A DNA stretch of 64,000 bases from Terriglobus roseus (GTDB taxonomy: Bacteria; Acidobacteriota; Terriglobia; Terriglobales; Acidobacteriaceae). The position numbers and the translations under genes are program-made. The DNA lies in assembly GCF_900102185.1 (NCBI RefSeq), contig NZ_LT629690.1, positions 1,364,001 through 1,428,000 on the forward strand. The letters are read 5' to 3'. The notes beneath the pieces were generated by a model. It was not told where the DNA came from. It was given only the letters and a program-made list of their open reading frames with translations, and made no database searches. Positions 6,578 through 23,811 of this stretch are shown in pieces (the stretch's first letter is position 1; each line of letters starts with the position of its first letter).

Positions 6578-8086
6578 TTGCTGCTTCAGCCCAAGTTGAA
6601 CCTTCGAGTTGCTCAGCGCCAGGTGCTCACACCTGGGCTGGTCCAGATGGTGAGCGTACTAGCGCTCAACAAGCTGGAACTGAAGGAGATGATCAACGCT
6701 GAAGTTGTAGAGAACCCTGTGCTGGAGGAGATTGAAGATTCCTCCGCAAGCTTTGAAGAACTTGCCGGACGCGAAGGCGATCGCGAACTCTCCGCAGAAC
6801 AGCAAAAGACCGAGGCCGAGCGAGAAGAGAAAGACCCATTCGATGAGATCGACATGGGCGAATATTTCCAGGAGTATCTGGATCCCGGCTTCCGCGCCTC
6901 TGGCCCATCGTTTGAAGAACTCGATTCACCTTCGTTCGAAAACTTCCTCTCCAAGCCATCCACGCTGACTGATCATCTGCTGTGGCAACTCGGCGCCATG
7001 ACACTGCGGCCGGAACTGCGCGCTGCGTGCGAAGTGGTCATCGGCAATCTGGAAGACAACGGCTACCTCACCGTCGATGACACAGAGCTCGCCTCGCTCG
7101 ACGAAAACGGCCACGCCACGCCCGCCCTCATGGCAGAGGCAAGAGCTGCCGTGCAGACGCTCGATCCCATAGGCATCGCCGCCAAAGATCTGCGTGAGTG
7201 CCTCCTGTTGCAGATCCGCGCTGCCCTCAGCGACACGGACGACGCTATCCTCGACGAGGAAGAATACGAGGCACGCCAGAGCGAGCTCACAATCGCCTGC
7301 AGAATTGTCACGGATCACCTGCAGTTGCTGCAGAAGCGCGATCTTCGCGAACTCACCCGACTTCTCGGTGCAACGCTCGATGAGGTACAGGCTGGGATCG
7401 ACGCCATCCGTTCGCTCGATCCACGTCCCGGCCAGCGTTACAACCAGCAGGAGACGCGGCTCATTGAGCCAGACGTGGCTTTCGTGAAGCGCAACGACGA
7501 GTGGCAGGTTGTGATGAATGAGGACGATCTGCCTACGCTTCGCCTCAACGCCGGCTATCGCAAGATGCTGCGCCAGAAGGACACTGAGCGTGAGGTGAAG
7601 GAGTACGTCAAAGAGCGCTATCGCTCCGCCATTCAGCTCCTTCGCAATATTGAGCAGCGCAAGAACACCATCGTTCGCACATGCGACTCCATCGTCCGCC
7701 GCCAGCAGGATTTTCTGGAACACGGCGTGGACTCCCTCCGCCCCATGATGATCAAAGAGGTGGCGGAAGAAATTGGCGTACATCCTTCTACCGTGTCGCG
7801 AGCTGTCGCGAACAAATATGTGCACACCCCGCAGGGAGTGTTTGAGCTGCGCTTCTTCTTCAGCGAGGGCGTGAACGGACCCGAAGGTGGCGATCTTCCT
7901 CTCATGCTGTTGAAGAAAAAGGTTCGCAAGCTGATTGAGGAAGAAGATCCGAAGAAACCTTTGACGGATGATGCACTGGCCAGTGAGCTTCAGCGGCAGG
8001 GAATTCAGGTCACACGGCGCACAGTGGCGAAGTACCGCGAGGATATGAACATTCCCAGTACACATCAGCGCCGCAAACGCGACTAG
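6578..8086 (+). CDS. rpoN: RNA polymerase sigma-54 factor
   Basis: Alternative sigma factor that recognises -24/-12 promoters and needs AAA+ activators. The Gln-rich N-terminal region I (LQPKLNLRVAQRQVLTPGLVQ) binds activators; an acidic region II (about residues 55-115) follows; the core-binding region III has LDPIGIAAKDLRECLLLQI; the DNA-binding part contains VAEEIGVHPSTVSRAVANKYV and the C-terminal RpoN box, here read as RRTVAKYREDMNIPST. The start is TTG at 6578 with GGAG 10 bases upstream, matching the family N-terminus exactly. Length 502 aa is normal. hpf and rapZ follow, the classical rpoN neighbourhood. Confidence 0.97.
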   Translation: MLLQPKLNLRVAQRQVLTPGLVQMVSVLALNKLELKEMINAEVVENPVLEEIEDSSASFEELAGREGDRELSAEQQKTEAEREEKDPFDEIDMGEYFQEYLDPGFRASGPSFEELDSPSFENFLSKPSTLTDHLLWQLGAMTLRPELRAACEVVIGNLEDNGYLTVDDTELASLDENGHATPALMAEARAAVQTLDPIGIAAKDLRECLLLQIRAALSDTDDAILDEEEYEARQSELTIACRIVTDHLQLLQKRDLRELTRLLGATLDEVQAGIDAIRSLDPRPGQRYNQQETRLIEPDVAFVKRNDEWQVVMNEDDLPTLRLNAGYRKMLRQKDTEREVKEYVKERYRSAIQLLRNIEQRKNTIVRTCDSIVRRQQDFLEHGVDSLRPMMIKEVAEEIGVHPSTVSRAVANKYVHTPQGVFELRFFFSEGVNGPEGGDLPLMLLKKKVRKLIEEEDPKKPLTDDALASELQRQGIQVTRRTVAKYREDMNIPSTHQRRKRD

Positions 8087-21549: not shown

Positions 21550-22104
21550 ATGTCGATCAAGAGCGATAAGTGGATCCGGGAGCAGGCAACAAAGCATGGC
21601 ATGATTGAGCCGTTCAGCGAGAAGCAGGTCAGCAAGGGCTGCATCTCTTACGGGCTCTCGTCCTATGGTTACGATCTGCGCGTGTCCAACGAATTCAAAA
21701 TCTTCACCAACGTGAACAGCGCCATCATCGACCCCAAGGCGTTCGACGAGCGTTCTTTCGTCACGGTGGAAGCAGATAGCGTGATCGTTCCTCCCAACTC
21801 CTTTGCACTCGCCCGTTCCATTGAATACTTCCGCATCCCCCGCGATGTCCTCACAATCTGCGTCGGCAAGTCGACCTATGCTCGCTGCGGCATCATCGTG
21901 AACGTCACGCCGTTCGAACCGGAATGGGAAGGCTACGTCACCCTCGAAATCTCCAACACCACACCGCTTCCGGCAAAGGTCTATGCAAACGAAGGCCTCT
22001 GCCAGATTCTCTTCTTCCAGTCGGACGAAGTGTGTGAAACCAGCTACGCGGACCGTTCTGGAAAGTATCAGAGGCAGCAGGGAATTGTGCTGCCGAAACT
22101 GTGA
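21550..22104 (+). CDS. dcd: dCTP deaminase
   Basis: Deaminates dCTP to dUTP for thymidylate synthesis. The protein is 184 aa from ATG 21550, which has AGGAG 5 bases upstream; the frame upstream to 21391 is open but unsupported. Motifs: [64 protein letters not shown] (catalytic Glu in the last segment; Arg/Ser in KSTYAR) and the C-terminal GKYQRQQGI, the nucleotide-binding tail. A neighbouring LuxR-type regulator starts inside its stop region (GTGA overlap), suggesting coupled translation. Confidence 0.95.
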
Positions 22105-22742
22105 CTACGTCCGGCCAATCGGTGAGCGGTAGGCTGCGCATCGGTGTGGTCAGTAGCGATGCTTTGCGCATCGAAGGTCTTCGCGCCATCCTGGAAGAGA
22201 CCTGCGACATCGTCCCCATGACAGCGCCGGAAACTCTTCGCGACAACGATCTGGCGATGGTGCTGATCGACGTCCCTGAAGATGATCTTCCGGCCCTCAT
22301 GTCCACTCTCCGCCGCGCACGTCCCGGCCTGCGACTCATCGTCCTCGGCACACGCAGCGACCCCGGTTTCATTCAGAAGGTCGTCGCCAGCGGTGCCAAG
22401 GGCTATCTCCTGCACACCGCAAACCAGCGGGAAATCACCATGGCTGTTGAAGTCGTGGCCGATGGTTCCATCTGGGCGCCACGTAAAGTTCTTGCAAGTC
22501 TGATCGACACCATCGCGCCGACCGAAGGTCGAGCACCTGAGGTTCGCCTGACGCCGCGAGAACAGGAAGTCATTGAGCTGCTCATCGCTGGCCGTGCCAA
22601 CCGCGAGATCGCGGCCACGCTCGGTGTTGAGACAAAAACCGTCAAAAGCCACGTGGGCCGACTCCTCCAGAAGTTCGGCGTGCCCAATCGTGTTGCGCTC
22701 ACGGTCCGTGCGCTTGAAATGCAAATCGGTCGAGAACTCTAA
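22101..22742 (+). CDS. LuxR/NarL-type response regulator with degenerate receiver domain
   Basis: A 213-aa regulator. The receiver domain reads [29 protein letters not shown] and SGAKGYLLH; the usual acidic pair is reduced (SSD), the conserved Thr is Gly (VLGTRSD) and the conserved Lys after GYLL is His, though the candidate phospho-Asp in LIDVPE remains. The C-terminal LuxR HTH is intact: [40 protein letters not shown]. It starts with GTG at 22101 and overlaps dcd by 4 bases. No histidine kinase is nearby. It may work without canonical phosphorylation. Confidence 0.92.
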
Positions 22743-22810
22743 AATTCTCTCCTCGAAAAATTGAGACAAAATGCCTGATTTATGGGCAATATTTCAATTT
22801 TGGTTGAGTC

Positions 22811-22943
22811 ATTGAGGGGCTTAGGCCCTCCGTAACTTGAACATTGTCCTTGCGGACCTCATCCTAGCTTTACGTAACACAGACCTGGGAGAAGAGGGGC
22901 TGGCGGCGCGGGTGCGAACCTGATCGACAGCCCCCATTTTTTA
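22811..22943 (+). ncRNA. Candidate structured small RNA or leader ending in an intrinsic terminator
   Basis: The 327-base gap 22743-23069 contains no gene. Within it, GGGGCTG (22896-22902) can pair with CAGCCCC (22928-22934), followed by A and TTTTTT (22937-22942), a good intrinsic terminator. The same CAGCCCC can instead pair with an upstream GGGGCT (22816-22821), and TTAGG (22821-22825) with CCTGA (22919-22923) and CCC (22826-22828) with GGG (22910-22912) would extend an irregular rod, as in 6S-type RNAs. A GGT-GCGA-ACC tetraloop hairpin (22911-22920) lies inside. I cannot assign a known family; it could also be the 3' UTR of the regulator gene. Confidence 0.4.
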
Positions 22944-23069
22944 CTCTCACGGACTCTCCCTCCCCCACATTTCATCCGAGTACAACGTTCTCCGTCGTCC
23001 ATTCATCCCACTACATGAATTGACAGTAGCGGCTGATGTTAATGGCTGCTACGGATTGGGTGGAATACT

Positions 23070-23765
23070 GTGATCAATCGATGGAAAGCTGCTTTGTGTT
23101 CGGCAATGGTGGTTGCCGTAACCATTCCGGCCATGGCTGCCGATAAGGCAAAGCTTGATGAACGTCTAACCGACTCCCAGAACATCATCAACGAGATTAT
23201 GGCGACGCCGGATAAGGCTATCCCGTCATCCATCCTCGGCGGCGCTTCATGCGTTGTGGTGATTCCTGCCTACAAGAAGGGCGCATTCATCGTGGGCGCT
23301 CAGTATGGTCAGGGCGTAGCCACGTGCCGTACCGGCCACGGTTGGAGCGCACCGGTCTTCGTGCAGCTCACCGGCGGCAGCGTGGGCTTCCAGATTGGCG
23401 GTCAATCGACTGACCTGGTGCTCGTCGCCATGAACCAGAATGGCCTTCAGCACATGCTGGCGAACAAGTTCAAGATCGGCGCGGATGCCGCTGCAGCTGC
23501 CGGCCCGGTAGGCCGCAACGCACAGGCGGGAACCGACTGGAAGCTGAACGCGGAGTTCCTCACCTATTCGCGTTCCAAAGGCCTCTTCGCAGGTATCAAC
23601 CTTGACGGCACGGTTCTGTCGCAGAACATCGATGACACCCGCGAGTTTTACGGCACGGCGACCCCGTTCAAGACCATTCTGAACGGCAACATCCCCACGC
23701 CGCCGGACGCACGTCCGTTCGTCGGAACCGTGGCGAAGTACTTCATCGCCACGCACAATAAGTAG
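23070..23765 (+). CDS. SYLF (Ysc84-type) lipid-binding domain protein, secreted
   Basis: A 231-aa protein with a signal peptide (MINRWKAALCSAMVVAVTIPAMAA). The SYLF domain is shown by AIPSSILGGASCVVVIPAYKKGAFIVG, GWSAPVFVQLTGGSVGFQIGGQSTDLVLVAM, NKFKIGADAAAAAGPVGRNAQAG and YSRSKGLFAGINLDGTVL (given here as short known elements). SYLF domains bind phosphoinositides in eukaryotes; the bacterial role is not settled. Start is GTG at 23070 without a clear SD. A strong terminator follows its stop. It is a single-gene unit downstream of the candidate RNA. Confidence 0.9.
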   Translation: MINRWKAALCSAMVVAVTIPAMAADKAKLDERLTDSQNIINEIMATPDKAIPSSILGGASCVVVIPAYKKGAFIVGAQYGQGVATCRTGHGWSAPVFVQLTGGSVGFQIGGQSTDLVLVAMNQNGLQHMLANKFKIGADAAAAAGPVGRNAQAGTDWKLNAEFLTYSRSKGLFAGINLDGTVLSQNIDDTREFYGTATPFKTILNGNIPTPPDARPFVGTVAKYFIATHNK

Positions 23766-23776
23766 GTTTCCACCTT

Positions 23777-23811
23777 GCGGCTGACGCTCCTTGAGCGTCA
23801 GCCGCTTTTTT
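23777..23811 (+). terminator. Intrinsic terminator after the SYLF gene
   Basis: Perfect 13-bp inverted repeat (23777-23789 and 23793-23805) with a 3-base loop, followed by TTTTTT (23806-23811). It lies 11 bases after the stop codon and rules out the long frame from 23791 as a real start of the next gene. Confidence 0.92.

Follow-up and report, generated by a model that had tools for sequence, protein, structure and literature searches.

The region analyzed is located in Terriglobus roseus (Acidobacteriaceae; contig NZ_LT629690.1) within a stretch of 64,000 nucleotides, referred to as the window. Between the stop codon of a regulator gene at position 22742 and the GTG start codon of a SYLF gene at 23070, a gap of 327 bases was confirmed, which an earlier reading made from the DNA letters only (the sequence-only reading) had described as free of genes. 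Both neighbors named in that reading, a degenerate regulator and a SYLF gene, were recovered by domain searches. The regulator carries a GerE domain, and its receiver reached 18.3 bits with Response_reg (PF00072), which is below the cut-off of 30.2 bits for this family. Based on comparison of 84 related loci, the 133 bases from 22811 to 22943 within the gap resolve into an inverted repeat, a promoter and a predicted RNA of approximately 70 nt. The features are as follows:

22101–22742, + strand: NarL/LuxR-type regulator gene with degenerate receiver, upstream neighbor of the RNA (GerE, PF00196, 62 bits)
22808–22835, no strand assigned: imperfect inverted repeat abutting the -35 element (information peaks at fixed spacing in both arms)
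22837–22865, + strand: sigma-70-type promoter, as deduced from aligned rows: TTGAAC (22837–22842), 17-base spacer, CATCCT (22860–22865)
22873–22942, + strand: predicted small RNA of about 70 nt (R1 and R2 covariance models; fold z -2.00)
22876–22894, + strand: nearly invariant 5' end AACACAGACCUGGGAGAAG, which may serve as a pairing seed or as a protein-binding site (information content, predicted unpairedness)
22896–22942, + strand: intrinsic terminator with stem GGGGCUG/CAGCCCC (22896–22902 with 22928–22934), apical stem and U6 at 22937–22942 (sequence and covariation)
23070–23765, + strand: SYLF/Ysc84-domain gene, downstream neighbor of the RNA (PF04366, 133.9 bits)

Just 3' of the SYLF stop codon, at 23777–23811, a strong terminator-like hairpin was also observed, consisting of GCGGCTGACGCTC-CTT-GAGCGTCAGCCGC followed by T6.

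The 84 compared loci were picked from the listed matches for spread over genera and therefore represent a non-random selection, in which near-duplicates are included. Seven of 53 matches were removed (two duplicates and five weak matches on the opposite strand), 40 further loci were added, and L048 and L049, in which the motif is absent, were also left out. Information content was determined on the 80 non-redundant rows among the 84.

Promoter, probable operator and terminator of the predicted RNA

Within the 80 non-redundant rows, 64 contained a TTG meeting the rule applied in the analysis and 16 did not. In rows aligned on this TTG, the -10 hexamer sits exactly 17 bases past the -35 hexamer, its second position is A in 57 of 64 rows, and the spacer is mostly near 0 bits. 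Matches to TATAAT averaged 3.33 at a spacer length of 17, compared with values of at most 2.19 at the other lengths from 13 to 22. The resulting family pattern, TTG-N17-YANAAT, is, judged from the aligned rows, the signature of a sigma-70-type promoter and not of an RNA loop. Among all 84 rows, 74 have a TTG 36–50 bases before CAGA, and 66 of these show the A at the second position. Since the chosen TTG lies 41–46 bases before CAGA in 53 of the 64 rows, transcription would start a few bases 5' of AACACAG; the RNA ends given above were accordingly placed by promoter spacing at the 5' side and by the terminator at the 3' side. A consensus promoter scan of the window returned no site (0 found), the hexamers of the window being too poor for it, and by consensus the window's own promoter copy is weak.

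The inverted repeat upstream of the promoter has a consensus of approximately GTTACTAAGGT-N6-ACCTTCGTAAT, and the copy in the window reads GAGGGGCTTAGGCCCTC. In the 64 rows aligned on the promoter TTG, both arms show information peaks at fixed spacing, and on average 4.75 of 11 positions are complementary, compared with 2.0–3.3 after sliding one arm by 1–3 bases. These values point to a probable operator, presumably recognized by a DNA-binding protein. Loci for which no regulator was found in the fetched flank behave differently from one another: L065, L075 and L080 have no clear left arm of the repeat, while the left arm is still present in L036, L068, L106, L071 and L092. Due to this mixed retention, we infer rather than observe control by the neighboring regulator. 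Furthermore, L058, L061, L082, L083 and L108 possess a second palindrome (approximately TTTACTNNTTAGTAAA) about 80–100 bases 5' of the seed, which is possibly another regulator site.

The sequence-only reading had treated 22811–22943 as one structured RNA. A single long RNA of 133 nt is disfavored because both conserved blocks 5' of the seed are placed at promoter spacing and flank an almost uninformative spacer. The first half of this stretch looks like operator and promoter DNA rather than RNA, and the RNA was assigned to 22873–22942. By the length rule applied in the analysis, RNA lengths of 49–85 nt were obtained across the 84 loci. Folding of the 133-nt stretch yielded a z value of -1.36 (17 of 200 shuffles were equally good) and folding of the last 70 nt a z value of -2.00 (8 of 200). 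Predicted folding by itself is weak evidence for an RNA; it is sequence conservation, rather than the fold, that lifts the candidate above chance.

The terminator hairpin noted in the sequence-only reading is present, with GGGGCTG (22896–22902) facing CAGCCCC (22928–22934) and a T6 tract at 22937–22942. An alignment of the gap in relatives, which that reading had suggested as a check, revealed covarying pairs in this stem: two-sided changes occur in 7/7 pairs, and 97.7% of cells are paired, so that the stem sequence varies among loci while pairing is kept. In total, 66 cells with two-sided changes were counted, compared with a mean of 10.3 after shuffling (0 of 500 shuffles reached 66) and with 7–19 in slid versions of the stem alignment. 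The underlying alignment A4 comprises 83 rows, 81 of them distinct (L019 and L020 omitted, the second match in L104 added), and, being fitted to a covariance model, leans towards structure; the slid and shuffled controls were computed on the same alignment. The stem contains 12 G-U cells versus 6 A-C cells, an excess that leans to the + strand, and the U tract points in the same direction. A simple terminator scan, the definition of which permits loops of 3–8 bases only, found 0 sites.

It had also been proposed that CAGCCCC pairs instead with an upstream GGGGCT, forming a long irregular rod or an attenuator-like switch. The upstream sequence does exist at 22817–22822 and could pair, but only 2 of 84 rows retain it, and it precedes the promoter. 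Moreover, covariation ties the CAGCCCC arm to the adjacent 5' arm of the terminator, which speaks against the proposed alternative pairing.

The terminator hairpin and U tract directly follow the most conserved part of the RNA, a block of the form (A)ACACAGACCUGGGAGA. Its CAGA and GGG positions carry 1.49–1.97 bits (80 non-redundant rows). Seed variants within the family are CAGACCUGGGAGA, CAGAUCUGGGGAA and CAGAACCUGGGAGA, the latter two being found in other genera. Across the 84 loci, the predicted mean unpaired probability is 0.67–0.96 from 7 nt before CAGA through the U before GGG, and drops to 0.14–0.44 over GGGAGAA, which is able to pair with the U tail.

Distribution and copies at other loci

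A query of 181 bases (22770–22950) matched 11 of 200 Acidobacteriaceae genomes, and two of these matches look like chance. Nine of the 11, the window's own locus included, show dCTP deaminase, regulator, element and SYLF in this order. Two congeners match the query only over 22817–22948 and 22816–22944, at 95% and 92% identity, respectively. Covariance models extended this range considerably. Model R1, representing the 3' part, detected the RNA in 183 of 398 genomes of the family at an E-value of 0.01 (38 of 79 genera). Model R2, built from 83 matches, was positive at an E-value of 0.001 for 244 of the 298 order genomes searched (56 of 70 genera; 211 of the 251 genomes of good quality), and all 244 positive genomes belong to the Acidobacteriaceae. 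In a draw from the phylum, R2 matched 29 of 297 genomes, 28 of them inside this family. The sole match outside (G614:C10:562662-562713) is weak, with an E-value of 7e-4, and may represent chance or a distant relative.

An exact search of named genomes with 19 bases gave 11 records, each with Terriglobus, Acidobacteriaceae or Acidobacteria in its title, including T. roseus DSM 18391 and T. albidus DSM 26559; seed and terminator were found in each of the three records examined. The plasmid collection contained no match to the RNA. Among viral contigs one match was obtained, the surroundings of which possess neither terminator stem nor U tract; it was taken as chance and not as mobile spread.

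At 72 of 84 loci a same-strand SYLF gene lies downstream of the RNA; the other 12 have none there. The SYLF match starts 72–421 nt past the RNA in 71 of the 72 loci and 1287 nt past it in one. Within the flanks fetched, 54 of 84 loci have a regulator homologue upstream of the RNA. Some relatives keep RNA and SYLF together while the regulator is displaced or was not found; in L022 and L025 the matched regulator ends about 1.4 kb upstream of the RNA instead of directly beside it, and intervening material seems to separate the two. Locus L067 features a tandem pair of SYLF genes 3' of the RNA, and three tandem copies of the RNA itself lie within about 800 bases of one genome (G373:C121:6215-6289, 6702-6776 and 6925-6999).

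Neither SYLF nor the regulator adjoins the RNA at 11 of the 84 loci, two of which are in the window's genome. These two additional copies scored 36.0 and 22.5 bits with R1 and are located at positions 1501–1552 of L044 and 1501–1550 of L045 (G000:C1:2257792-2257843 and 1131730-1131779). In both, a CCTTGGTAACTATC block replaces the GTAACTTG of the main copies, and their terminator stems differ.

In seven of the 11 copies the surrounding genes were tested and found to differ from one another, encoding transaldolase together with MacB; SRAP; HAD hydrolase; SpoIIE; polyketide cyclase; gamma-glutamyltranspeptidase together with an endonuclease/phosphatase; and M16 peptidase. The downstream genes vary likewise (MacB permease, SRAP, HAD hydrolase, polyketide cyclase, endonuclease/phosphatase). 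A same-strand gene follows in five of the seven (L044, L045, L055, L057 and L094), and the next gene is convergent in L056. Because 11 copies are placed elsewhere without either neighbor, the RNA looks like a stand-alone family.

Possible function of the RNA

Based on these results, the element is probably a short regulatory RNA gene in its own right and would belong to a new trans-acting sRNA family of the Acidobacteriaceae. The comparison of loci supports this proposal by the conservation of the element, the promoter pattern, the covarying terminator and the copies at other loci, as does the presence of Hfq in the genome. According to the proposed mechanism, the sigma-70-type promoter at 22837–22865 would drive a transcript of about 70 nt ending at the intrinsic terminator. 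The palindrome upstream probably controls this promoter, with the adjacent NarL-type regulator as the obvious candidate and possible activator. The conserved, mostly unpaired 5' end would be exposed ahead of the terminator hairpin and its oligo-U tail and would most likely pair with target mRNAs. Pairing with mRNAs is considered the likeliest mechanism since promoter, exposed 5' end, terminator with U tail and copies together correspond to the plan of a trans-acting sRNA of the Hfq type. The weak consensus of the window's promoter and the frequent pairing of the GGGAGA portion with the U tail in predicted folds weigh against the proposal.

Candidate targets were sought by complementarity to the seed. 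A 14-base anti-seed pattern with at most one mismatch gave 29 matches in 8 genomes of the same genus; 15 were counted as copies of the RNA, leaving 14 non-copy sites versus 4 for the reversed control pattern. A shifted 13-base pattern gave 19 matches in four genomes, of which six were exact and coincided with RNA copies; the 13 non-copy sites that remained compare with 7 for the reversed control. Near-perfect complements of the seed therefore show a mild excess over the control, with no convincing target among them. In 17 of the 27 non-copy sites the longest frame (at least 100 codons) occupies the other strand, and in the remaining 10 the same strand; none of the sites is at a start codon common to relatives. 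Only two pairs of sites are common to genomes: L185/L187, inside long overlapping frames on both strands, and L153/L170, where the opposite strand resembles the start of a ribosomal protein L28 gene. Pairing of the seed showed no excess with the 420 bases 3' of the terminator (mean z 0.02 over 72 SYLF loci), a region that barely extends to SYLF in a few loci, and none with the 5' region of the regulator (54 loci, mean z -0.07). Imperfect targets would escape the searches used.

Association with SYLF raises the question of a cis-acting leader or attenuator, in which the terminator stops transcription unless a signal permits read-through into SYLF. SYLF indeed lies 3' of the RNA on the same strand at 72 of 84 loci, and five of the seven tested copies elsewhere likewise precede a same-strand gene. 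An attenuator or riboswitch would be expected always upstream of the gene family it controls and to feature a conserved alternative pairing of its terminator, whereas 12 of 84 copies have no SYLF gene downstream, the genes that follow the tested copies are of different kinds, the next gene in L056 is convergent, the distance to SYLF varies widely, and the proposed GGGGCT arm is retained at 2 of 84 loci. A leader of SYLF is hence rather improbable. In its pure form it fails to explain the neighbor-less copies; nevertheless, the orientation leaves room for a cis role acting on varied genes, which the SYLF link and the same-strand downstream genes at five of seven tested copies would suit as well.

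Alternatively, the invariant 5' end could be the site of an RNA-binding protein instead of a seed for mRNA pairing, making the RNA a protein-binding or decoy RNA. This is consistent with a 5' motif that, unlike the stem sequence, hardly varies among genera and copies, and with complementarity searches that gave no convincing targets. Csr/Rsm sponges, however, are multi-site RNAs, unlike the present one with its one site per molecule. Seeds of sRNAs are highly conserved as well, and imperfect targets are missed by such searches. Altogether, a protein-binding role is considered possible but less likely. In contrast, both a 6S-type RNA and an attenuator-like switch are highly improbable: a fold over 133 bases can be drawn, but the RNA is predicted to be only about 70 nt long, few loci retain the upstream pairing arm, and the 6S RNA of this genome is encoded elsewhere, with no 6S match listed for the element at E-values up to 10.

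Going beyond the preferred sRNA family, it may be speculated, with considerable doubt, that the RNA serves the Acidobacteriaceae as a core post-transcriptional regulator, wired by its operator to the NarL-type regulator and copied with a frozen 5' end, its partner perhaps being a protein. If so, the RNA would be a lineage-specific decoy RNA. Acidobacteria are abundant soil bacteria whose regulatory RNAs are barely charted. Since promoter, operator, seed and terminator have been set by comparison, a search for targets and for the regulator is feasible in culturable Terriglobus.

Comparison with known RNA families

The sequence-only reading had placed the candidate outside the known families, had considered 6S-like folding a possibility and had suggested a scan with Rfam covariance models, a hit of which might account for the element. 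At gathering scores, no Rfam family matched across the whole window, and none matched in 11 loci of the RNA family apart from a neighboring tRNA. The element is conserved, and its placement outside known families thus stood, since no known family accounts for it at these scores. For the gap, only sub-threshold eukaryotic families were among the matches listed at E-values up to 10. Across ten loci scanned below threshold, a single match (RF00489, L097, E 3.4) coincides with a copy of the RNA; it reached 21.1 bits against a cut-off of 50 and was taken as chance. A literature search of limited depth found no published description of the RNA; for the phylum Acidobacteria, a table in a 2022 review counts only 4 distinct annotated sRNAs (PMC9029176).

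6S RNA (RF00013) resembles the present RNA in that both are non-coding RNA genes. It was rejected, and with it the 6S-like folding, because the element gave no match at the gathering score and none listed at E-values up to 10, is predicted to be much shorter, and the genome's 6S match is located at G000:C1:4768044-4768230 (52.7 bits). Acido-1 RNA (RF01686), reported from Acidobacteria by Weinberg et al. 2010 and entered in a table of that paper as RNA 'y' and cis-reg 'n' (PMC2864571), is likewise acidobacterial and of similar size (64 model positions). Its model matched in 4 of 298 genomes of the order, one match being above the cut-off; the flanks fetched around these matches contained nothing matching dCTP deaminase, the regulator or SYLF. 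Acido-1 was dismissed as an explanation, as it was not listed at the element and has 0 matches in the window's genome.

The closest correspondence is to trans-acting sRNAs of the Hfq type, from which the present RNA differs in that its mRNA pairing and Hfq binding are putative and in that no Rfam family matched at gathering scores. It represents a new family within a known kind and stands out by occurring in most of the Acidobacteriaceae genomes sampled, in a phylum for which few sRNAs have been annotated. In common with these sRNAs, it has its own sigma-70-type promoter pattern, as found by comparison of rows, and a conserved, mostly unpaired 5' stretch, the predicted accessibility of which resides mainly in AACACAGACCU. 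Moreover, it ends in an intrinsic terminator with a U tail (covariation, U6), occurs as copies at several loci in some genomes, and is found in a genome encoding Hfq (PF17209, 97.6 bits).
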